Assembly (NCBI GenBank): GCA_009837355.1
Contig: VXTR01000003.1
Coordinates: forward strand, 1 to 38,504
DNA from: Chloroflexota bacterium
GTDB lineage: Bacteria > Chloroflexota > Dehalococcoidia > Lucifugimonadales > UBA3495
DNA: 38,504 bases
Direction: 5' to 3'
A program made the translations under genes and the position numbers. The notes beneath the pieces were generated by a model. It ran no database searches. It saw only the letters and a list, made by a program, of their open reading frames with translations, and had not been told where the DNA came from. Of this stretch, positions 7,309 to 17,415 are shown one piece after another. Position 1 is the first letter of the stretch; every line of letters begins with the position of its first letter.

Positions 7309-7337
7309 TTGACAGACCCGGCGTCTATCTTTAAACT
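7309..7337 (+). promoter_or_regulatory. Candidate sigma-70-type promoter for DUF1501 gene
   Basis: A perfect TTGACA (7309-7314) is followed after 17 bases by TAAACT (7332-7337, four of six matches). It lies just downstream of the VOC stop codon and would give a leader of roughly 85 bases before the DUF1501 ATG. That would separate the DUF1501/DUF1800/glc run from the upstream ACP/ligase run. Confidence 0.5.
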
Positions 7338-7428
7338 GGCGGTATCAGGCAGATTTGCGCTGGCGCTTTTCGTTGCGCCGTGTTTTTCGTTACCCGTGTC
7401 CGTTACCCATGAAGGAGGCCATCCCAAA

Positions 7429-8559
7429 ATGACCACCACCAACCGCAGCAAGTCGCTCGTCGTCATCCAGTTGGCTGGCGCCAACGACCCGCTGAACACC
7501 GTGATTCCCTACGCCGACGGGCTGTACTACGATTTCCGGCCCAACGTGGGCATCCCCACCGACCAGGTGATTCCCATCAACGAGCGGCTGGGGTTCAACC
7601 CCAACATGGCGCCCATCAAGTCGCTGTGGGACGAGGGCAAGGTAGCCATTGTCAACGGCATCGGCTATCCGAACCCCAACCGTTCGCACTTCCGCAGCAT
7701 GGACATCTGGCACACCTGCGAACCAGAAAAGATAGCCACCGAGGGCTGGCTGGGCCGGGTAATTCGCGACCTTGACCCCCAGGGTCAGAACGTGATTACC
7801 GGCGTGAACTTCGGGCGGGGGCTGCCCCGTTCCCTGGGCGCGCCGGGCGTGCCGGTGGCCTCGGTGGGGAACCTGGAAACCTACGGGTTGTTCCCCGACG
7901 TGGAGGAGGAGCGCATCCGCGGGCTGTGCCTGGACGCCTTCGGCAAGATGTACGGCGGCAGTATCCAGGACGCGGTGATGGACTACCTGGGGCAGACGGG
8001 CCGGGACGCGCTGAAAGGCGCCGACATCCTGCGCACCGCGCCGGACAAATATTCGTCCAGCGTGGAATACGCCGACAACCCCATCGCCCAGGCGCTGAAG
8101 AACGCGGCGCAGGTGATGACCGCCGACCTGGGCACCCGCATCTACTACACCCAGCACGGCAGCTTCGACACCCACGGCGACGAGGTGAAGGTGCAGGGCG
8201 GCCTGTGGAACCAGGTTTCCGGCGCAGTGAGTGACTTCATGGCCGACCTGGAAGAGCACGGCAAGGCCGAAGATGCCATCGTGCTGATCTGGACGGAGTT
8301 CGGCCGGCGCATTCGGGACAACGGTTCCGGCACCGACCACGGCTCCGGCGGGACGGCGTTCATCATCGGCAACGAGGTGAACGGCGGCTTCTACGGCGAG
8401 TACCCGTCCCTGGCCGAAAAGGACCAGCTGGACGGCGACCTGCACTTCAACAACGACTTCCGTTCCACGTACTCGACCATTGCCGAGCAGTGGCTGGGTC
8501 TGGACCCGGTTCCAATCGTCAACGGCCAGTTCGAGCAGTGGGACTTCATCCGCAATTAA
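7429..8559 (+). CDS. DUF1501 family protein
   Basis: The 376-residue product is a DUF1501 protein, a family with an alkaline-phosphatase/sulfatase-like fold and no firmly assigned reaction. Family landmarks are SLVVIQLAGANDPLNTVIPY at the start, a middle HGSFDTHGDE motif and the late WTEFGRRIRDNGSGTDHGSGG block with clustered Asp and His, suggestive of a metal site. The ATG at 7429 has AAGGAGG about 11 bases upstream. In contrast to most DUF1501 proteins there is no Tat signal after this start; an in-frame upstream hydrophobic run (codons at about 7345-7401) would only be included with a much earlier start. It is paired with DUF1800 downstream, as in many genomes. Confidence 0.85.
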   Translation: MTTTNRSKSLVVIQLAGANDPLNTVIPYADGLYYDFRPNVGIPTDQVIPINERLGFNPNMAPIKSLWDEGKVAIVNGIGYPNPNRSHFRSMDIWHTCEPEKIATEGWLGRVIRDLDPQGQNVITGVNFGRGLPRSLGAPGVPVASVGNLETYGLFPDVEEERIRGLCLDAFGKMYGGSIQDAVMDYLGQTGRDALKGADILRTAPDKYSSSVEYADNPIAQALKNAAQVMTADLGTRIYYTQHGSFDTHGDEVKVQGGLWNQVSGAVSDFMADLEEHGKAEDAIVLIWTEFGRRIRDNGSGTDHGSGGTAFIIGNEVNGGFYGEYPSLAEKDQLDGDLHFNNDFRSTYSTIAEQWLGLDPVPIVNGQFEQWDFIRN

Positions 8560-8588
8560 TCCACAAAAGGGAAAGTACGGAGGCAATT

Positions 8589-10004
8589 ATGAGCAATGCC
8601 GACATTGCCTTGATGGCGCACCTGATGCGTCGGGCCGGTTTCGGCGCCAGCCGCGACGAATTGGAACAGCGGAACGCCCGCGGCTATGAGAACGTGGTGG
8701 AAGACCTGCTCAATCCCGGCGCCGCCAACTCCATGCCGGACGACGTTATCCGCCGCTACCACGTGGATATGGCGGAGATGCGGGAGCTGAACAGCGCCGG
8801 GGCTTACTGGCTGTACCGGATGGTAACCACGGACAACCCGCTGGAAGAGAAGATGGCGCTGTTCTGGCACAGCCTGTTCGCCACCGGCTACTCCAAGCTG
8901 AACCAGGCGCGCGCGCTGATGAACCAGATTGACACCTCCCGGCGCAACGCCATGGGCGACTTCCGGACGATGCTGGTGGAGTTGTCAAAGGACCCGGCCA
9001 TGATCATCTGGCTGGACAACAACGACAACCACAAGGGCGACATCAACGAGAACTACGGCCGGGAGCTGCTGGAGCTCTTCTCCATGGGCATCGGCAACTA
9101 CACCGAGGACGACGTGAAGGAGTGCGCCCGCGCCTTCACCGGCTGGACTTTGGGCAACGCCGAGTACATGGCCACCCGGGCCAGCCGGGATTCCATCTGG
9201 CCGTACAGCCGCATTTCCTGGCACTTCCAGTACCGGGACCACGACCACGACGACGGCGAAAAGACGTTCCTGGGCGAGACCGGCAACTTCAACGGCGAGG
9301 ACATCATCGACATCATCGTGCGGCAGGAGGCCACGGCGCGGTTCATCTGCACGCGGCTGTTCCAGTTCTTCGCCGCCGACGAGGTGGACGCTGCCGGCGA
9401 GGCCGTCATCGAGGAGATGATGGCGTCCTACTTTGCATCCGGCTATGAAATCCGCTCGGTGCTGCGGACGCTGTTCAACTCCGACTACTTCAAGTCGGAG
9501 TCGGCGAGGTTCGCCCGGGTCAAGGGGCCGGTGGAGTTGGTAGTGGGCGCGGTCAGGCTGGCCGGAACCTATCAGGAGCCGACTTTCGGCGCAGACCAGC
9601 TGGCCCGTTACACCATGTACATGGGACAGGGCATCTTCCAGCCGCCCAGCGTGGAAGGCTGGCACGAAGGCGCGGAGTGGATTGACAGCGGCGCCCTGGT
9701 GGAACGGGTGAACTTCGTGGGCAAGGAGCTGGGCGACCCGACGAACCCCGGCGTCATGGCCATCATCGACCGCGCGTCCGCCGGCGTGGATGGGCCATTG
9801 TCCGCCGAGGCGCAGGTTGACGTGTGCGCCGACCTGCTGGGGCCGATCCCACTGTCCGACTCCACGCGCAGCTCGCTGAGCGAGTTCGCCAGCCAGCAGG
9901 GTGAGGCCGACCTGCGTCCCGGCGCGCGCACCGAGGCCGACGAGCAGCGCATCGCCAACCTGCTGCGGCTGCTGACGGCGACGCGGGAGTATCAGTTGGC
10001 GTAG
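8589..10004 (+). CDS. DUF1800 family protein
   Basis: The 471-residue product is a typical DUF1800 protein. It has an N-terminal LMRRAGFGASRDELE, then EKMALFWHSLFATGYSKL, the ENYGRELLELFSMGIGNYTEDDVKECARAFTGWTL block and a C-terminal GQGIFQPPSVEGWHEGAEWI. The biochemical role of the family is unknown. It is almost always next to a DUF1501 gene, as here (29-base gap), so the two proteins probably form a complex or process the same substrate. No secretion signal is visible at the ATG 8589, which has GGAGG five bases upstream. Earlier in-frame codons overlap the DUF1501 gene and lack homology. Confidence 0.9.
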   Translation: MSNADIALMAHLMRRAGFGASRDELEQRNARGYENVVEDLLNPGAANSMPDDVIRRYHVDMAEMRELNSAGAYWLYRMVTTDNPLEEKMALFWHSLFATGYSKLNQARALMNQIDTSRRNAMGDFRTMLVELSKDPAMIIWLDNNDNHKGDINENYGRELLELFSMGIGNYTEDDVKECARAFTGWTLGNAEYMATRASRDSIWPYSRISWHFQYRDHDHDDGEKTFLGETGNFNGEDIIDIIVRQEATARFICTRLFQFFAADEVDAAGEAVIEEMMASYFASGYEIRSVLRTLFNSDYFKSESARFARVKGPVELVVGAVRLAGTYQEPTFGADQLARYTMYMGQGIFQPPSVEGWHEGAEWIDSGALVERVNFVGKELGDPTNPGVMAIIDRASAGVDGPLSAEAQVDVCADLLGPIPLSDSTRSSLSEFASQQGEADLRPGARTEADEQRIANLLRLLTATREYQLA

Positions 10005-10081: not shown

Positions 10082-11110
10082 ATGACTACCGCCGTAGCCG
10101 CCGGGCCGGTGGAATACATCAAGACCATTGGGCTGACCACCAACCAGAGCGGCCGAGGGTTCACCAACCCCTACGACTGCGCTTTTGACGCCGACGGGCG
10201 CATCCTGACACTGAATCGCTGCGACACGGTGCGGGCCTCGCTGGTTCGCATCGGGATGATGAGTTGGGATGAGGACTACCTGGGCGAGTTCAGCCGGGGG
10301 TACGGGCGCGGCGACGGGCAGTGGATTCTGCCGGTGGCCATGGCACTGGACCGCCAGGGCGTGGTGTACGTTACCGACGAGCAGCAGCACCGGATTACCG
10401 CGCTGGACACCGACGGCAATTTTGTGCGTCAGTGGGGCGAAAAGGGCAGCGACGCCGTGCAGATGAACGGCCCGGCCGGCCTGGCCATCGGCGGCGACGA
10501 AATCCTGTACGTCGTTGAGCAAGGCAACAACCGGGTGCAGCGGTTCACCACGGCCGGCGAGTCGCTGGGGACATGGGGCGAGGCCGGCGACGGACCCGGA
10601 CAGTTCAATATGCCCTGGGGCGTCGGCCTGGACGCCGCCGGCAACGTGTACGTGGCCGACTGGCGGAACGACCGGGTACAGAAGTTCACCGCCGACGGGC
10701 AGTTTATCGCCGCCTATGGCTCCTCGGGCGACGGCGACGGACAGCTGAGCCGTCCCTCCGCGGTGTGCGTTGACTCCGCAGGCTACATCTACGTGGCCGA
10801 CTGGGGCAACGAGCGGGTGCAGATATTCGACGGGGACGGGAGCTTTGTACAGTCGCTGCGGGGGCAGGCCACGCTGTCCAAGTGGGCGCAGGATTACATG
10901 TCCGTGAATCCGGACGAGCGCAACACCCGTGAGATTGCCAACCTGGTGCCGGAACTGCCGGCGCACTTTGACACGCCGTATCTCATTTCCTCACAAACCG
11001 AACCATACTTCTGGGGGCCGGTGTCGGTGCGGCTGGACGCCGAGGAGCGGCTATTCGTCGTGGAGTCCAACCGCCACCGCATCCAGGTGTACCAACGCCG
11101 CAAGGAGTGA
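10082..11110 (+). CDS. NHL-repeat beta-propeller protein
   Basis: The 342-residue product consists of repeated NHL units such as NMPWGVGLDAAGNVYVADWRNDRVQKF and RPSAVCVDSAGYIYVADWGNERVQIF (pattern only partly quoted by position: about residues 175-260), which together give a six-bladed beta-propeller. There is no signal peptide or membrane segment, so it is probably cytoplasmic or secreted by a non-classical route. NHL propellers serve as binding scaffolds or as lactonase/lyase-type enzymes; no catalytic residues are obvious. The start has AGGAGA upstream. It ends seven bases before the TTG of glcD and follows the DUF1501/DUF1800 pair, so it may act with either group. Confidence 0.85.
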   Translation: MTTAVAAGPVEYIKTIGLTTNQSGRGFTNPYDCAFDADGRILTLNRCDTVRASLVRIGMMSWDEDYLGEFSRGYGRGDGQWILPVAMALDRQGVVYVTDEQQHRITALDTDGNFVRQWGEKGSDAVQMNGPAGLAIGGDEILYVVEQGNNRVQRFTTAGESLGTWGEAGDGPGQFNMPWGVGLDAAGNVYVADWRNDRVQKFTADGQFIAAYGSSGDGDGQLSRPSAVCVDSAGYIYVADWGNERVQIFDGDGSFVQSLRGQATLSKWAQDYMSVNPDERNTREIANLVPELPAHFDTPYLISSQTEPYFWGPVSVRLDAEERLFVVESNRHRIQVYQRRKE

Positions 11111-11117
11111 ACCGACG

Positions 11118-12554
11118 TTGTCCAGCCCTGACCTGCTGACCCAAATCCGCGCCGTCGTCGGGGACGATTATGTAATTGACCACCGGGAGGATTTGCTGGT
11201 CTATGAGTACGACGGCTCGGTTGACCGCTCCATGCCCCGGGCGGTGGTGCTGCCGGACGGTGTTGACGAAGTAAGCAGGGTGATGGCTCTGGGCTACGAG
11301 GCCGGCGTTACCGTAGTTGGACGGGGCAGCGGCACCGGACTCAGCGGCGGGGCGATCACGCCGCCGGACGGGTTGCAGATTGCCTTTCCCCGCATGAACC
11401 GCATCCTGGACGTGGATACGGTGAACTGCACGGCGCTGGTGGAGCCGGGAGTCATCAACCTGGACCTGGACAACCACGTGCGGCGGTTCGGGATGCGCTA
11501 CGCTCCGGATCCGTCCAGCCAGCGGGCGTGCAGCATCGGCGGGAACATCGCGGAGAACGCCGGCGGGCCGCACTGCCTGGCATACGGCGCTACCACCAAC
11601 CACGTCATCGGTATGGAGGTCGTGCTGGAAGACGGCACGGTGGTGAACCTGGGGAGCATGGCGCGGGAAGCCGCCGGCTACGACCTGCGCGGGGCGTTCG
11701 TCGGTTCCGAGGGAACTTTCGGCATCGCCACCAAGATACTGGTGCGGCTGCTGCCGACGCCGGAAACGGTGCGCACGTTCCTGGGCATCTTTCCTGACAT
11801 TGACTCGGCCTGCACCGCCGTGTCCGCCGTTATCGGCCACGGCATCGTGCCGGCGGCTTTAGAAATGATTGACGCGCTGAGCATCAAGGCGGTGCAGAAC
11901 GTAACCGACGCCGGCTATCCCAACGACGCCGGCGCGGTGCTGCTCATTGAGCTGGAGGGCTTGCAGGAAGAGGTGGACGAAGTAACCAGGGAGGTTGAAT
12001 CCGCGCTGTGGGACACCGGGGCCGCCGACGTGCGAATCGCCGAGGATGACGACGAACGGGAACGGCTGTGGCTAGGCCGCAAGACGGCGTTCGGAGCATT
12101 CGGCACCATTGCGCCCAACTACTACCTGGTGGACGGCGTGGTGCCGCGCACTCGGCTGACGCAGATGCTGCGCAAGGTGAACGAAGTCAGCGAGCGTTAC
12201 GGCATCACCATCGCCAACGTGTTCCACGCCGGGGACGGCAACCTGCATCCCTGTATGCTCTTTGACGCCCGGGAGCCGGGGGTGATGGACAAGGCCCTGG
12301 CGGCGGCGGCCGAGTTGATGGAGGAATGCGCCGCGTTAGGCGGAACGCTGAGCGGCGAGCACGGCATCGGGCTGGAAAAGAAGGAGTTTATGCCCCTGGT
12401 CTATACCGACGCCGACATGGCGGCGATGCAGCGGGTGCGGGAGGCTTTCGCGCCAGAGAACCGCTTGAATCCGGGCAAGATTTTCCCCGACGGCAGCTAC
12501 TGGCGTCCGGCCGGGGCGCATCCGGCGGGGCACGCTGCCGTGTTGTACGTGTGA
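11118..12554 (+). CDS. glcD: Glycolate oxidase FAD subunit GlcD
   Basis: The 478-residue protein is an FAD-linked oxidase of the GlcD type, which oxidises glycolate to glyoxylate together with GlcE and GlcF at the membrane. It shows the FAD pyrophosphate loop GRGSGTGLSGGA (about 68-79), CSIGGNIAENAGG, VGSEGTFGIAT and, in the C-terminal half, VFHAGDGNLHP, SGEHGIGLEKKEFM and ENRLNPGKIFP. The TTG at 11118 is taken as the start because AAGGAG lies ten bases before it and the length fits; no ATG is available before the family homology starts. Its stop overlaps a GTG start of the nuclease/ATPase gene by four bases. glcE and glcF follow only after that gene. Other 2-hydroxy acids such as D-lactate remain possible substrates. 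Confidence 0.9.
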   Translation: MSSPDLLTQIRAVVGDDYVIDHREDLLVYEYDGSVDRSMPRAVVLPDGVDEVSRVMALGYEAGVTVVGRGSGTGLSGGAITPPDGLQIAFPRMNRILDVDTVNCTALVEPGVINLDLDNHVRRFGMRYAPDPSSQRACSIGGNIAENAGGPHCLAYGATTNHVIGMEVVLEDGTVVNLGSMAREAAGYDLRGAFVGSEGTFGIATKILVRLLPTPETVRTFLGIFPDIDSACTAVSAVIGHGIVPAALEMIDALSIKAVQNVTDAGYPNDAGAVLLIELEGLQEEVDEVTREVESALWDTGAADVRIAEDDDERERLWLGRKTAFGAFGTIAPNYYLVDGVVPRTRLTQMLRKVNEVSERYGITIANVFHAGDGNLHPCMLFDAREPGVMDKALAAAAELMEECAALGGTLSGEHGIGLEKKEFMPLVYTDADMAAMQRVREAFAPENRLNPGKIFPDGSYWRPAGAHPAGHAAVLYV

Positions 12555-14647
12555 CTCTTGTGCCACCACGACACCGAAATAGCGTTGGCTCCCTCTCCAA
12601 CGGAAGCGGACAGACGGGGCTGTTGCTAGACGACGCCGATTCATTGCTGGGCCGGCTGCACGTGGCCAAAGCGAGATTTGACCATGTTGAGCCATTTTCC
12701 CTTGACTTGTTCAAAGGGTTCTCGTCCTTGCGGGCGTTGACTTATTCGGTCAGCATCCCGATGATTACCCGGCTGATGCGGGAAGTCGGGTTTGACGAGT
12801 TGGAGGTGGTCTTCGGACACGCTGGGCTGATTAATCGTACCGTCGAGGACGTCCTGTCGTTCCAGCACGTAGTTGAGGATTTGCAGAACCAAGCTCTTGT
12901 GACGAGCCTTGACGACGAAAAGCGTCAAGAGCTTTTCGACTCGGTAGCCGCCGGCAAAACCAGGTTCTACGTAGTAAAAGACGCCGCCATTTCCCACGCC
13001 AAAATCTACTTGCTGGAAAACTCCCACACGAACCGAAGGCGCGTAGTTGTTGGCTCGGCCAACCTTTCGGAGCAGGCGCTATCCGGCAAGCAGGCGGAGA
13101 CTTTGCTGGCGTTTGACGACGATGACGCGGCCTGGGCGCATTATTGCGCGCAATATGAAGCGGTACGGGATACGGCCACCAGCAAGCTGGAATTGCGGCC
13201 CCAGCCTTTGCCGGCCCTGGACTTGGCGGAAATCCCCGCGCTGAAAGAGGCTCTGGAAGACGAGCGCGAAACCGGCGTTACAATTTTCACGCCGCCGGTT
13301 ACCAGTGCCGAAGAACTCACTTTTCAGGTCGTAGAGCACAAGGTAGAGCGTATTAGGGACTACGTACGCAAAGATATAGGTGACCAAAGACCAGACCGAT
13401 CGGGCAACGTGGTATTGAACCGTCATGTTATTGGGCAGATAGTCCGCCTTTCGCGGTCTCGCACGAGGGAGAATGAAGCAGAGCAAAACACTTGGCTGAC
13501 CATTAATCCTGACCGTCAAAGCATCAATCTGTCAGGAAAGCAAATTAATCTGGAGGCTGATTGGCCACAGGTGCGCGGTGATACGGCCTGTTGGCTGGAG
13601 TTTTTCGACAACTACGGCAAGGGATTCTCGGGCGACGTGCCCCGTCTCCAACGCGACTATTTCACGTTTATGAGTTGGTTCTATTTTTCTCCATTGCTAT
13701 GCGAGCTCCGGGATGCCGCCCTCAGACAGAATATGTCGTCATTTAACCATCCAATGTTCGCTGTCATGCACGGCGATAGCAGTTGCGGCAAAACAACCTT
13801 TATTGAAACGTTGATGACATCAATGTTCGAGTTTTGGCAGCGGTTGGAACCATCTCAGTTCACCGCATCCAACCTTCGGGCGTTGCGACATTCCTACCGC
13901 CGTTTTCCCGTTTTCTTCGACGACATCACTCGAGACCGATTCAATCGCTATGGTGAAGAGATCATCAAAGACCCGAACACGCCGGGGGTAGAATATCCTT
14001 GCTTCGTCATCTCGATGAACGCCAATGCGAGAAATTTCAAGACGGAGGTCATCAAGCGTTGCCTGATGATTTACACTCGCACTTACATTCCTGGCGACCG
14101 CATTGTGGAGCGCAACCAGTTGCAGCGTTCCGTAACTGGCATCCGCAGCCGACTCACCACGTCGCTGTACCGCGAATATCTGCGGCGCATCCTCGCCGTC
14201 ATTGATGGTATGGAACGCTCCGATGCCGGGGATGCCGATGTGCTGGAACTGTCATCGGGCGTTCTGCGAAATTTGATCAACGAAGCAAAACCAGATGGCG
14301 CTGTGTTGCCCCAATGGTGTCAGCAAACGTCGCTGATTGAATACCAAGAGCGAGCTTTTGAGCGTCCTAAACTGCTGCTGGAGAACCTGATTTCCAAAGA
14401 CCGATACAGCAAACGCCGCAACCCGCCAGAATCCTACTGGTCGCTGCGCGATAACCAAGTAGTCGTCAACGCTGGAACTCAGGAATTGCGCAGTCTCCGT
14501 ACCGATATACCGGATTGGATTCTAGACGACACCAGCAGCGTTGCCGGTTTGCTGACACTGAAGCGCAAGGAGCTAGAGGATTTTCTGGGAGTCCGATCGC
14601 TGAAACCACGAAACCCGCTGCAACGATTCTTGTCAGCGGGACGCTGA
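12551..14647 (+). CDS. HKD (PLD-like) nuclease domain fused to P-loop ATPase
   Basis: The 698-residue product has two recognisable parts. Residues about 20-200 resemble the HKD/phospholipase-D nuclease family: His149-x-Lys151 in SHAKIYLLE, then VVVGSANLS with Ser169 and Asn171, and Glu183 twelve residues later. Only one HKD set is present, as in dimeric nucleases such as BfiI. Residues about 390-560 form a P-loop ATPase with Walker A GDSSCGKTT (408-416), Walker B VFFDD (Asp457, Asp458), a sensor-like FVISMNAN and an Arg-containing VIKRCLM; it recalls phage SF3-type helicases. The start is the GTG overlapping the glcD stop; earlier open codons lie inside glcD. Base composition is nearer 50% GC in places, against roughly 65-70% in glc genes. 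A DNA-targeting defence or mobile-element protein is inferred, not shown. Confidence 0.7.
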   Translation: MTLVPPRHRNSVGSLSNGSGQTGLLLDDADSLLGRLHVAKARFDHVEPFSLDLFKGFSSLRALTYSVSIPMITRLMREVGFDELEVVFGHAGLINRTVEDVLSFQHVVEDLQNQALVTSLDDEKRQELFDSVAAGKTRFYVVKDAAISHAKIYLLENSHTNRRRVVVGSANLSEQALSGKQAETLLAFDDDDAAWAHYCAQYEAVRDTATSKLELRPQPLPALDLAEIPALKEALEDERETGVTIFTPPVTSAEELTFQVVEHKVERIRDYVRKDIGDQRPDRSGNVVLNRHVIGQIVRLSRSRTRENEAEQNTWLTINPDRQSINLSGKQINLEADWPQVRGDTACWLEFFDNYGKGFSGDVPRLQRDYFTFMSWFYFSPLLCELRDAALRQNMSSFNHPMFAVMHGDSSCGKTTFIETLMTSMFEFWQRLEPSQFTASNLRALRHSYRRFPVFFDDITRDRFNRYGEEIIKDPNTPGVEYPCFVISMNANARNFKTEVIKRCLMIYTRTYIPGDRIVERNQLQRSVTGIRSRLTTSLYREYLRRILAVIDGMERSDAGDADVLELSSGVLRNLINEAKPDGAVLPQWCQQTSLIEYQERAFERPKLLLENLISKDRYSKRRNPPESYWSLRDNQVVVNAGTQELRSLRTDIPDWILDDTSSVAGLLTLKRKELEDFLGVRSLKPRNPLQRFLSAGR

Positions 14648-14650
14648 CAG

Positions 14651-15982
14651 ATGATGAGCAACATCACCGCTCAGCTGGCCGACGTGATTGGCGCCGATGC
14701 CGTGGCGGATTCCGGCCGGCTGGCGGAATATGCTATTGGGCCGTTCACTCCCGTTGGTGCCGTGCGGCCGGCGGATGCTGATGGCGTGGCGGCGGTGATG
14801 GCGTGGGCACAGCGGGCCGGGATCGGCGTCTATCCTGTTGGGGGACGGACGCTGGCGCAATTGGGCAACGTGCCGACTCGGCCCGGCATTGCGCTGGACC
14901 TGTCCGGGTTGAATCGCCTGGTGGATTTTCAGCCGGCGGACCTTACCGTGCAAGCGCAGGCCGGTATGACCATCGCGCAACTTGACGCCGAGTTGGCCCA
15001 GGACGGCAAGCACGTTCCGCTGGGCGCGCCGCTGGCGCAGCGGGCTACCATTGGCGGCACGCTGGCCACCGGAATCAGCGGGCCGTTGCGGACTACCTAC
15101 GGTTTGCCCCGGGACTGGCTCATCGGGGTCAGCGTGGTGGGCGCCGACGGCACTGCCAGCAAAGCCGGCGGGCAGGTGGTCAAGAACGTTACCGGCTACG
15201 ACCTGAACCGACTCTACACGGGGTCGCTGGGCACGTTGGCGGTGATTACCGAAGCTACCTTCAAGCTGGCGCCGGCGCCTACGGAATGGGCTGCCATTGC
15301 CGCCGCTTTCAGCGATAACGACGCCGCGATTGCAGCCTGCCGGGAGCTGCAAGCACAACCCTACGCTCCGCAGGCTTTGCACCTGCTGAATCCGGCGGCG
15401 GCACGGAGTATGGGGAACCCCGACCTGCCGTCGGGATACGGGCCGGTGGCCATCGCTATTATCGGCGGGCGACCGTCGTCGGTGCGGCGGCGGATTACCG
15501 ACACGGCGCTGCTGTGGCTGGAGGCGGCCAGCACGCTGCACATTGCTGGCGCGGAGGCGGTTCAGCTAACGGAAGCGCTGGCGGATTTGCCGTTCAATCC
15601 TAGCAACCCGCCGTCGGTTTGCGTTCGCGTCAACGCGCCGCCGGACGCGCTGCCGCAGTTGCTGGCGATGGAACGGGAAGAACTGGCGGGAGCGACACCG
15701 GCGATTGCCGGCGACGTTGGATTTGGCGGCGGACGGCTGCTGTGGTGGGAAGATTTTTCCGATGCGGATGCGTCGCAAATCGCAGACAGACTGCGGGGCA
15801 TTCAGGGCGCCGCTGCACAGTTGGGCGGAGACGCCATCGTGGAGAGCTGTCCGGCATCGGTGAAAGAGCACATTGACGTGTGGGGGCCGGAGCCGTCGGG
15901 AATGGCCATAATGCGGCGCATCAAGGAGCAGTTTGACCCTAACAACATACTCAATCCCGGCCGCTTTATGGGAGGGTTATGA
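14651..15982 (+). CDS. glcE: Glycolate oxidase subunit GlcE
   Basis: The 443-residue product is the second FAD-binding subunit of glycolate oxidase. It shows VDFQPADLTVQAQAGMTIAQL, a loop GATIGGTL-like segment (ATIGGTLATGISGPLRTTYG), GGQVVKNVTGYDLNRL and GSLGTLAVITEATFKL, and ends NNILNPGRFMGG. It lacks the long GlcD C-terminal insert, as expected for GlcE, though it is somewhat longer than E. coli GlcE. The ATG lies three bases after the stop of the nuclease/ATPase gene, with a second ATG directly following; no strong ribosome site is seen, so translation may depend on readthrough of ribosomes from upstream. It overlaps glcF by four bases. Confidence 0.9.
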   Translation: MMSNITAQLADVIGADAVADSGRLAEYAIGPFTPVGAVRPADADGVAAVMAWAQRAGIGVYPVGGRTLAQLGNVPTRPGIALDLSGLNRLVDFQPADLTVQAQAGMTIAQLDAELAQDGKHVPLGAPLAQRATIGGTLATGISGPLRTTYGLPRDWLIGVSVVGADGTASKAGGQVVKNVTGYDLNRLYTGSLGTLAVITEATFKLAPAPTEWAAIAAAFSDNDAAIAACRELQAQPYAPQALHLLNPAAARSMGNPDLPSGYGPVAIAIIGGRPSSVRRRITDTALLWLEAASTLHIAGAEAVQLTEALADLPFNPSNPPSVCVRVNAPPDALPQLLAMEREELAGATPAIAGDVGFGGGRLLWWEDFSDADASQIADRLRGIQGAAAQLGGDAIVESCPASVKEHIDVWGPEPSGMAIMRRIKEQFDPNNILNPGRFMGGL

Positions 15983-17415
15983 TGGTCAACGCCCCGGACC
16001 GGCATCAAGAGCCGGATGCCGGCCACCACCTGGGCGGCGGAATTGACGCCGGGCATGGGTTTCCTTACGGAGTTCCCTTTGAGGGGTCCCTGAACGACGG
16101 GCCGGGTTTTGTGGGGGCAGATGCGCCAACCGAGGCCGATTTGTACCGCTGCGTGCACTGCGGGCTGTGTCTAAGCGCCTGTCCTACCTACGTGGAGACC
16201 CAGCTGGAAACCGAGTCGCCGCGGGGCCGCATCGCGCTGATGAAGGCCGTCCACGAGGAGAGGGTCGGCATCAGCGAGCGGCTGGTGTCGCACTGGGAGT
16301 TGTGCCTGCAATGCCGGGCCTGCGAGGCGGTGTGTCCGTCGGGAGTACCCTACGGCCGGCTGATGGAGCACACGCGGGCGCAGGTACAGGACAATAGCCT
16401 GCAAAGCCCGGAGTTAAGCCGGCTGTCCAGCCTGTTCCTGCGGGCCGCGTTGCCGCATAATCGGCGGCTGCGTTTGGCGGGACACTTGATGCGGCTCTAC
16501 CAAAGGTCGGGGCTGCAAGGGCTGGTGAGGCGGTCGGGGTTGCTGCGCGGACTGCCGGGTAGCCTGGCGGACATGGAAGCGCAGATGCCGGTGATGGGGC
16601 GGCAGTTTTTCAGTCCGGCACGTCGCGTCTATCCGGCAATGGGAGAGCGGCGCATGATGGTGGGCTTGCTGTCGGGTTGCGTGATGCCGATGATGCAGTC
16701 TGAGGCGATGCGGGCCGCGGTGCGGGTGTTGCAGCGCAATGGCTGCGAAGTGGCCGTGCCGCCGGCGCAAGGGTGCTGCGGCGCGCTGAATCTGCACGCC
16801 GGCGACCTGGAGCTGGGGCGGCGGATGGCACGGCGCAACATTGACGCCTTTCGAGATGCCGGGGTGGACCTGGTCATAACGGCATCGGCCGGCTGCGGGT
16901 CGTCGATGAAGGAGTACGGCGACCTGCTGCGCGACGATGGGGACTATGCGGAGGCTGCCGCCCAATTCGCGGCCAACACCCGGGACATTACGGAGTTTCT
17001 GGCCGGGCTGCCGCTGGAGCCGCCTCAGGCCGAAATGGCCTGGCGGGTGACGATGCAGGACCCGTGCCATTTGGCCCACGCGCAGCGGATTACGGATGCG
17101 CCGAGGCGGGTCTTGCGCAGCATTCCGGGGCTGGAGCTGGTGGAGATGGCGGAGTCGTCGCTGTGCTGCGGGTCGGCGGGGTTTTACTCCCTGATACAGC
17201 GGGATATGTCGCAGCGGTTGCAGCGGCGCAAGGTGGGGAACGCGCTGGCTACGGAGGCCGAGATTATCGCATCGGCCAACCCCGGCTGCATGGCGCAGCT
17301 GGAGCAGGGGTTGCGGAAGGCGGAGGCGTCAGCGGATGACGAGGACAGCCGGCCGGCGGTGCGGGTGATGCACGTGGTGGAGATACTGGACGCGGCGTAT
17401 CAGAGGGAAGGATAG
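15979..17415 (+). CDS. glcF: Glycolate oxidase iron-sulfur subunit GlcF
   Basis: The 478-residue product carries two 4Fe-4S ferredoxin motifs, CVHCGLCLSACP (Cys58, 61, 64, 68) and CLQCRACEAVCP (Cys109, 112, 115, 119). Two cysteine-rich CCG domains follow, with CCGALNLHAGD and the pair DPCHLAHAQ / CCGSAGFYS. This is the GlcF layout, which passes electrons from the GlcD/GlcE flavins to the quinone pool. It has an N-terminal extension of about 50 residues ahead of the first cluster, longer than in E. coli. Two start codons are possible: ATG 15979 overlaps the glcE stop, while ATG 15982 has better spacing (six bases) from GGAGG at 15971. It ends four bases from the convergent aminotransferase gene. 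Confidence 0.93.
   Translation: MMVNAPDRHQEPDAGHHLGGGIDAGHGFPYGVPFEGSLNDGPGFVGADAPTEADLYRCVHCGLCLSACPTYVETQLETESPRGRIALMKAVHEERVGISERLVSHWELCLQCRACEAVCPSGVPYGRLMEHTRAQVQDNSLQSPELSRLSSLFLRAALPHNRRLRLAGHLMRLYQRSGLQGLVRRSGLLRGLPGSLADMEAQMPVMGRQFFSPARRVYPAMGERRMMVGLLSGCVMPMMQSEAMRAAVRVLQRNGCEVAVPPAQGCCGALNLHAGDLELGRRMARRNIDAFRDAGVDLVITASAGCGSSMKEYGDLLRDDGDYAEAAAQFAANTRDITEFLAGLPLEPPQAEMAWRVTMQDPCHLAHAQRITDAPRRVLRSIPGLELVEMAESSLCCGSAGFYSLIQRDMSQRLQRRKVGNALATEAEIIASANPGCMAQLEQGLRKAEASADDEDSRPAVRVMHVVEILDAAYQREG

Follow-up and report, generated by a model that had tools for sequence, protein, structure and literature searches.

A gene for a predicted PLD-family nuclease with a replication-type AAA+ ATPase domain lies within the glc operon of a Chloroflexota bacterium

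Described proteins with related domains

The structure of BrxL closely resembles that of MCM (PMC10164562), and a BrxL with a C-terminal HKD nuclease, in which the HKD motif is reported as HRD, has been described in Type 1 BREX (PMC12839542). BrxL carrying a C-terminal HKD is the closest published analogue of the protein studied here, which is encoded between glcD and glcE in a 38,504-nucleotide stretch of DNA from a Chloroflexota bacterium (the window). Both appear to combine an MCM-like AAA+ ATPase and an HKD nuclease in one protein. However, the inserted-gene protein has the opposite domain order, keeps HxK, and is adjoined by no BREX partners, and no BrxL model was among its PADLOC matches up to an E value of 1.

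SauUSI and the HKD-SF2 helicase proteins (PbeA and the HKD+Snf2 protein C3a139) likewise carry a PLD nuclease and an ATP motor in one polypeptide, and SauUSI (7clg) aligned to the structural model of the inserted-gene protein at a Z score of 10.2. In contrast to these SF2 helicases, our protein has an AAA+ domain of the Cch/SF3/MCM type; Pfam gave no SF2 helicase or SRA match of the sort that marks SauUSI-type (type IV) enzymes. PLD restriction endonucleases of the NgoFVII/NgoAVII/BfiI type share with it the PF09565 domain and the pattern HxK...S-x-N...E without the canonical D, but the inserted-gene protein has a fused ATPase and no adjoining restriction-modification partner genes. The best fold matches of its ATPase half, SCCmec Cch and SaPI Rep, differ from it in being mobile-island replication helicases that lack a PLD domain. 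Azaca ZacB and MADS mad8 have local HMM similarity to the family (PLD motif; ATPase region), which for mad8 was seen in 19 of 22 family members (best value, 8.4e-6); these are short stretches, and neither protein matches over the full length. No full-length match to any described family was obtained, and we found no description of a PLD nuclease joined to a Cch/Rep/MCM-type ATPase in the openly accessible literature.

The inserted gene and its predicted domains

The gene, predicted to encode a PLD-family nuclease plus AAA+ ATPase of 698 amino acids, is an intact and complete open reading frame on the forward strand (12551 to 14647). It begins with GTG and shares its first four bases (GTGA) with the end of glcD, the TGA stop included, and the glcE ATG at 14651 lies three bases past its stop codon (TGA CAG ATG). 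Hence, the sequence bears out the initial annotation, which had placed a 698-codon gene between glcD and glcE with this overlap and this gap. Translation could also begin at a second GTG (12560), and because homologues start at approximately residue 17 to 22 of the 698-codon reading, the N terminus is uncertain. Pfam and NCBIfam searches identified the flanking genes, all on the forward strand, as glcD (10929 to 12554; FAD-linked oxidase subunit; TIGR00387, E value of 8.5e-146), which is complete with its native stop, glcE (14651 to 15982; PF01565 and NF008439), and glcF (15979 to 17415; iron-sulphur subunit; NF008434, E value of 1.8e-86), with scores under the strict NCBIfam equivalog cut-offs. 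No promoter or terminator belonging to the inserted gene was found above chance; the gene is probably co-transcribed and translationally coupled within the glc operon. A perfect 8-bp hairpin, TGTCAGCG-GGA-CGCTGACA (14631 to 14649), spans its stop codon and is absent from homologues. Just 5′ of the glc genes, a DUF1501 gene and a DUF1800 gene overlap each other (7309 to 10004).

The multi-contig assembly, its contamination estimate of 3.1%, and the differing composition of the inserted gene raise the question of whether a metagenome bin has joined unrelated DNA. However, both junctions are tight and truncate neither glcD nor glcE, genomes of the same order that consist of a single contig also have homologues, and sister genomes carry other inserts at the same junction. 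We therefore regard an assembly artefact as extremely unlikely.

The predicted PLD (HxK) nuclease domain covers residues ~36 to 215 (12656 to 13195, forward strand). A Pfam match to PF09565 (RE_NgoFVII, the NgoFVII PLD domain) spans residues 139 to 202 and scores 26.0 bits against a cut-off of 23.8. This half of the structural model resembles Nuc (1byr), NucT (6ehi), the NgoAVII R protein (4rct), and FAM83 proteins (Z scores of ~9 to 10). The catalytic motif, H149-x-K151...G168-S169-A-N171-L...E183 (12995 to 13099, forward strand), is invariant at all six numbered residues in 22 of 22 aligned sequences, which places the protein in the PF09565 branch of the PLD/HKD superfamily. The canonical HKD Asp, expected five residues past the Lys, is missing; residue 156 is Glu and varies among homologues. 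Enzymes of the BfiI/NgoFVII type likewise lack the canonical Asp.

The predicted AAA+/SF3-MCM-like ATPase domain covers residues ~313 to 660 (13487 to 14530, forward strand, as are its motifs). It contains a Walker A motif, G408-DSSC-G413-K414-T415 (13772 to 13795; G408, G413, and K414 invariant), a Walker B motif, PVFFD457D458 (13907 to 13924; D457 and D458 invariant), and a sensor-1-like N490 with an Arg-finger-like R503 (14018 to 14059; both invariant). These are the elements of an AAA+/SF3-MCM-like helicase domain, the last two being putative assignments made from AAA+/SF3 motifs. Pfam gave no confident match for the ATPase half, only weak matches to SF3 (PF00910), AAA, and STAND/AAA_16; NCBIfam and PHROGs gave no useful match for the protein, and a PDB sequence search gave no match with the single protein and, with the profile, none above chance level.

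A structural model of the protein was built from 19 sequences and had a mean pLDDT of 71; modelling the ATPase half from one sequence gave an uninformative result (pLDDT of 38). In the former, the ATPase half (residues ~313 to 690) was nearest in VIA-align to SCCmec Cch (5dgk; Z score of 12.7, rmsd of 4.7, 250 residues aligned), followed by SaPIBov1 Rep (8tch; Z score of 12.6, rmsd of 10.1, 284 residues aligned), with MCM, AsfvPrimPol, and D5 ranking below them at Z scores of ~9 to 10. We conclude that the predicted fold of the ATPase half is that of helicases acting in mobile elements and in replication (SCCmec Cch, SaPI Rep, D5, and MCM).

The two-domain composition first proposed for this protein, a nuclease joined to an ATPase, agrees with the above-cut-off PF09565 match and with the structure prediction, in which both folds are seen. 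The residues named with that proposal (His149, Lys151, Ser169, Asn171, Glu183, Lys414, Asp457, and Asp458) are all present, and they are invariant in the 22 aligned sequences, which include Acetobacteraceae plasmid copies. Both active sites are unchanged across these sequences at identities down to 23%.

The glcD-glcE junction and horizontal spread of the family

Of the 13 genus mates, 11 have glcE directly after glcD, at a distance of 3 to 52 bases, and hence the inserted gene occupies precisely the gap from the native glcD stop to the start of glcE. Among genus mates, glcD is 86 to 93% identical; the adjoining glcE is much less conserved (57 to 70%). None of the genus mates carries the inserted gene at this junction, as a check of sister genomes proposed earlier confirmed. 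Two genus mates have other inserts there: a short unrelated ORF in G004 and a 2.27-kb type II restriction-modification system in G007 (L224; G007:C1 2050500-2058000), for which the methyltransferase matched at 1.7e-60 in PADLOC and 3.2e-36 in Pfam (N6_N4_Mtase) and the restriction endonuclease matched at 1.2e-76. In more distant members of the family, the junction is occupied by genes for a RelB-like antitoxin and a ParE-like toxin in G017, a RelB-like antitoxin gene in G027, a PaREP1-family gene in G035, and coiled-coil protein genes in G025 and G035. GDPD-like genes and a ClpN-like gene, both recognized by eye, also lie there in this wider group. The view that glcD and glcE are normally contiguous thus holds for most of the genus but not for G004 and G007, nor for the wider family, where the junction is often occupied. 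We conclude that the glcD-glcE junction is a recurrent insertion spot, for defence and other genes alike. The presence of restriction-modification and toxin-antitoxin genes could mean that the site is generally permissive, as GDPD and ClpN-like genes occur there too.

The inserted gene has a GC content of 54.0% (52.4% in its 3′ two-thirds), compared with 65.0% for glcD, 65.8% for glcE, and 66.9% for glcF. Its GC3, 0.628, is the lowest among the 16 window genes examined; the 15 others range from 0.738 to 0.873. The contrast of 50% with 68% GC drawn in the initial annotation was correct in direction, since the inserted gene is indeed lower than glcE, but the 50% came from one low line. Copies of the family are usually lower in GC than their own flanks (30 of 39 homologues), and composition, while it supports a foreign origin, is therefore partly a family trait.

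Of 250 genomes searched within the order, 39 carry homologues, as do 26 of 400 in a phylum-wide draw that included the window's own genome; a few of these are short fragments or weak partial matches. Beyond these, Acetobacteraceae plasmids carry homologues with ~24% identity over nearly the full length, and in Thermus oshimai pTHEOS02 (L072 5944-9002), the PLD half and the ATPase half are encoded separately, on either side of an annotated transposase-family gene. Phage or viral homologues were absent from 50,697 phage records and from viral contigs, and on this ground a phage origin of the inserted gene was rejected.

Similarity of the gene is decoupled from similarity of the hosts. The window gene is 38.6% identical to the copy in genus mate G006, while glcE is 64% identical; for G028, which belongs to another genus, the values are 51% and 42%; and the G001 and G011 copies are 95% identical, while glcE is 78% identical. 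Repeated horizontal transfer follows from this decoupling. The family, which is widespread but patchy, spreads horizontally. Acquisition of the gene by horizontal transfer into the glc operon, as first suggested, is consistent with its low GC content, this decoupling, and its absence from the junction in sister genomes.

Several observations would fit a self-moving single-gene element, with the PLD nuclease as transposase and the AAA+ domain as motor. The G001 and G011 copies are 93 to 94% identical in DNA sequence and have no similarity 3′ of the stop codon. In G101, at least four related copies (L120, L121, L122, and L223) lie in differing contexts, one of them cut by a contig end. A search for empty sites by joined flanks gave one clean case, the G006/G005 insertion, whose flanking genes are ~11 to 52 bases apart in G008, G010, and the window's own genome; G057 and G011 gave ambiguous results. 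The G006 insertion (L062 6862-9544) brought along a Uma2-type gene with the PLD-ATPase gene. Nevertheless, we consider self-movement very improbable. The segments shared in G101 have no fixed ends (left, ~70 to 90 or at least 620 bases; right, ~83 or 115 bases), and the right edge of one copy (3′ flank of L120) runs directly into an internal part of an unrelated repeated gene, at a micro-homology, CAGGAGATG. Terminal repeats or a target duplication at the window insert did not exceed shuffled expectation, and most carriers have a single copy. The 3′ hairpin (14631 to 14649) is not conserved in homologues and was ruled out as an element end. Self-transposition was set aside because the near-identical copies in G001/G011, in G101, and in the L049/L050/L051 group share no termini, repeats, or target duplication. 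The repeated small gene of G101 (L220 to L222) abuts the right edge of the L120 copy with its 3′ part, at CAGGAGATG.

Terminal inverted repeats, target duplication, and fixed ends, by which a transposon or insertion sequence is recognized, were thus not found. The suggestion of a mobile-element remnant was abandoned, as the gene is intact and belongs to a large conserved family without such features. The gene therefore moves, though not in the manner of a canonical transposon.

The nearness of the ATPase fold to SCCmec Cch and SaPI Rep, the copies on mobilizable plasmids, and the sequences resembling recombinases or ParA in the vicinity of some copies (G001 and G011; read by eye) are compatible with a replication initiator or helicase-nuclease of a mobile element, Rep-like but with a PLD nuclease replacing the HUH nuclease, that is now stranded in chromosomes. 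This origin seems unlikely, however: a plasmid with a copy (L070) has its own initiator, RepA, no partner gene is conserved across the loci compared, and most copies stand alone among chromosomal genes. We give still less credence to a phosphohistidine-based mobile or Rep-like system, in which a PLD nuclease making covalent DNA-histidine links and a Cch/Rep-type ring helicase would spread as a nearly bare coding sequence; the searches made turned up no PLD-class transposase or replication initiator.

Defence-gene neighbours and a proposed role

The 114 proteins flanking 38 homologues matched 215 PADLOC models, compared with 15 matches, all to candidate families or a reverse transcriptase, for 114 proteins from 19 arbitrary sites in carrier genomes; these counts include redundant models, come from partly non-independent loci and from ORFs chosen by length, and are set against a single control. 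Direct checks identified HsdR beside L121, a type IIG enzyme and HKD-Snf2 beside L052, HKD-Snf2 beside L119, and LeoA/LeoBC beside L060. GmrSD, AbiEii, and HerA were also among the neighbours matched in PADLOC. Clear defence neighbours were present at ~7 of 38 loci, and many other copies, including that of the window, are alone amid metabolic genes. We conclude that the association of homologues with defence genes is partial, involving a subset of loci. An antiviral role, raised as a possibility in the initial annotation, gains support by association from the loci with defence neighbours, but not from the many amid metabolic genes.

The inserted gene is probably a stand-alone, horizontally mobile single-gene effector against invading phage or plasmid DNA, encoding an ATP-driven nuclease. 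The best reading of the family is as a variant of the ATP-dependent HKD restriction enzymes with a putative role in defence. An AAA+ motor of the Cch/Rep/MCM type would form a ring on DNA, probably loading at replication intermediates or intermediates containing single-stranded DNA. ATP hydrolysis would then move or remodel the DNA such that the N-terminal PLD nuclease could cut it, by way of a covalent histidine intermediate. In the window, the gene was captured between glcD and glcE and would be expressed as part of the operon. We infer the nuclease activity, the ring, the DNA target, and the defence role, as well as co-transcription with the glc genes. The defence reading is weakened by the fact that the nearest motor fold, that of Cch, belongs to a replication helicase rather than a defence protein.

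The same neighbourhoods might instead reflect an abortive-infection toxin that is inactive until infection and then cuts host DNA (or RNA), with the ATPase as a sensor or switch and not a translocating motor. Members of the family occur as stand-alone genes next to AbiEii and LeoA/LeoBC and at a junction where toxin-antitoxin-type genes also insert, the Acetobacteraceae plasmid copies have toxin-antitoxin-rich surroundings, and no constant methyltransferase partner would shield self-DNA. However, the STAND/AAA_16 matches are weak and the ATPase fold is nearest to helicases, and we consider a toxin possible but rather doubtful.

Together, these data describe a real, mobile, and partly defence-associated gene family that is apparently undescribed so far. 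The Cch/Rep/MCM-type ATPase and the recurrent use of the glcD-glcE junction go beyond what the initial annotation had recognized. Defence cargo lands here at a junction within a metabolic operon, away from the classical islands. The gene itself is a widely traded, unannotated single-gene defence candidate that would couple a PLD nuclease to a replication-type ring motor in place of the usual SF2 helicase. If the protein defends, how a replicative-type AAA+ ring recognizes and destroys invading DNA would be directly testable in single-gene form.
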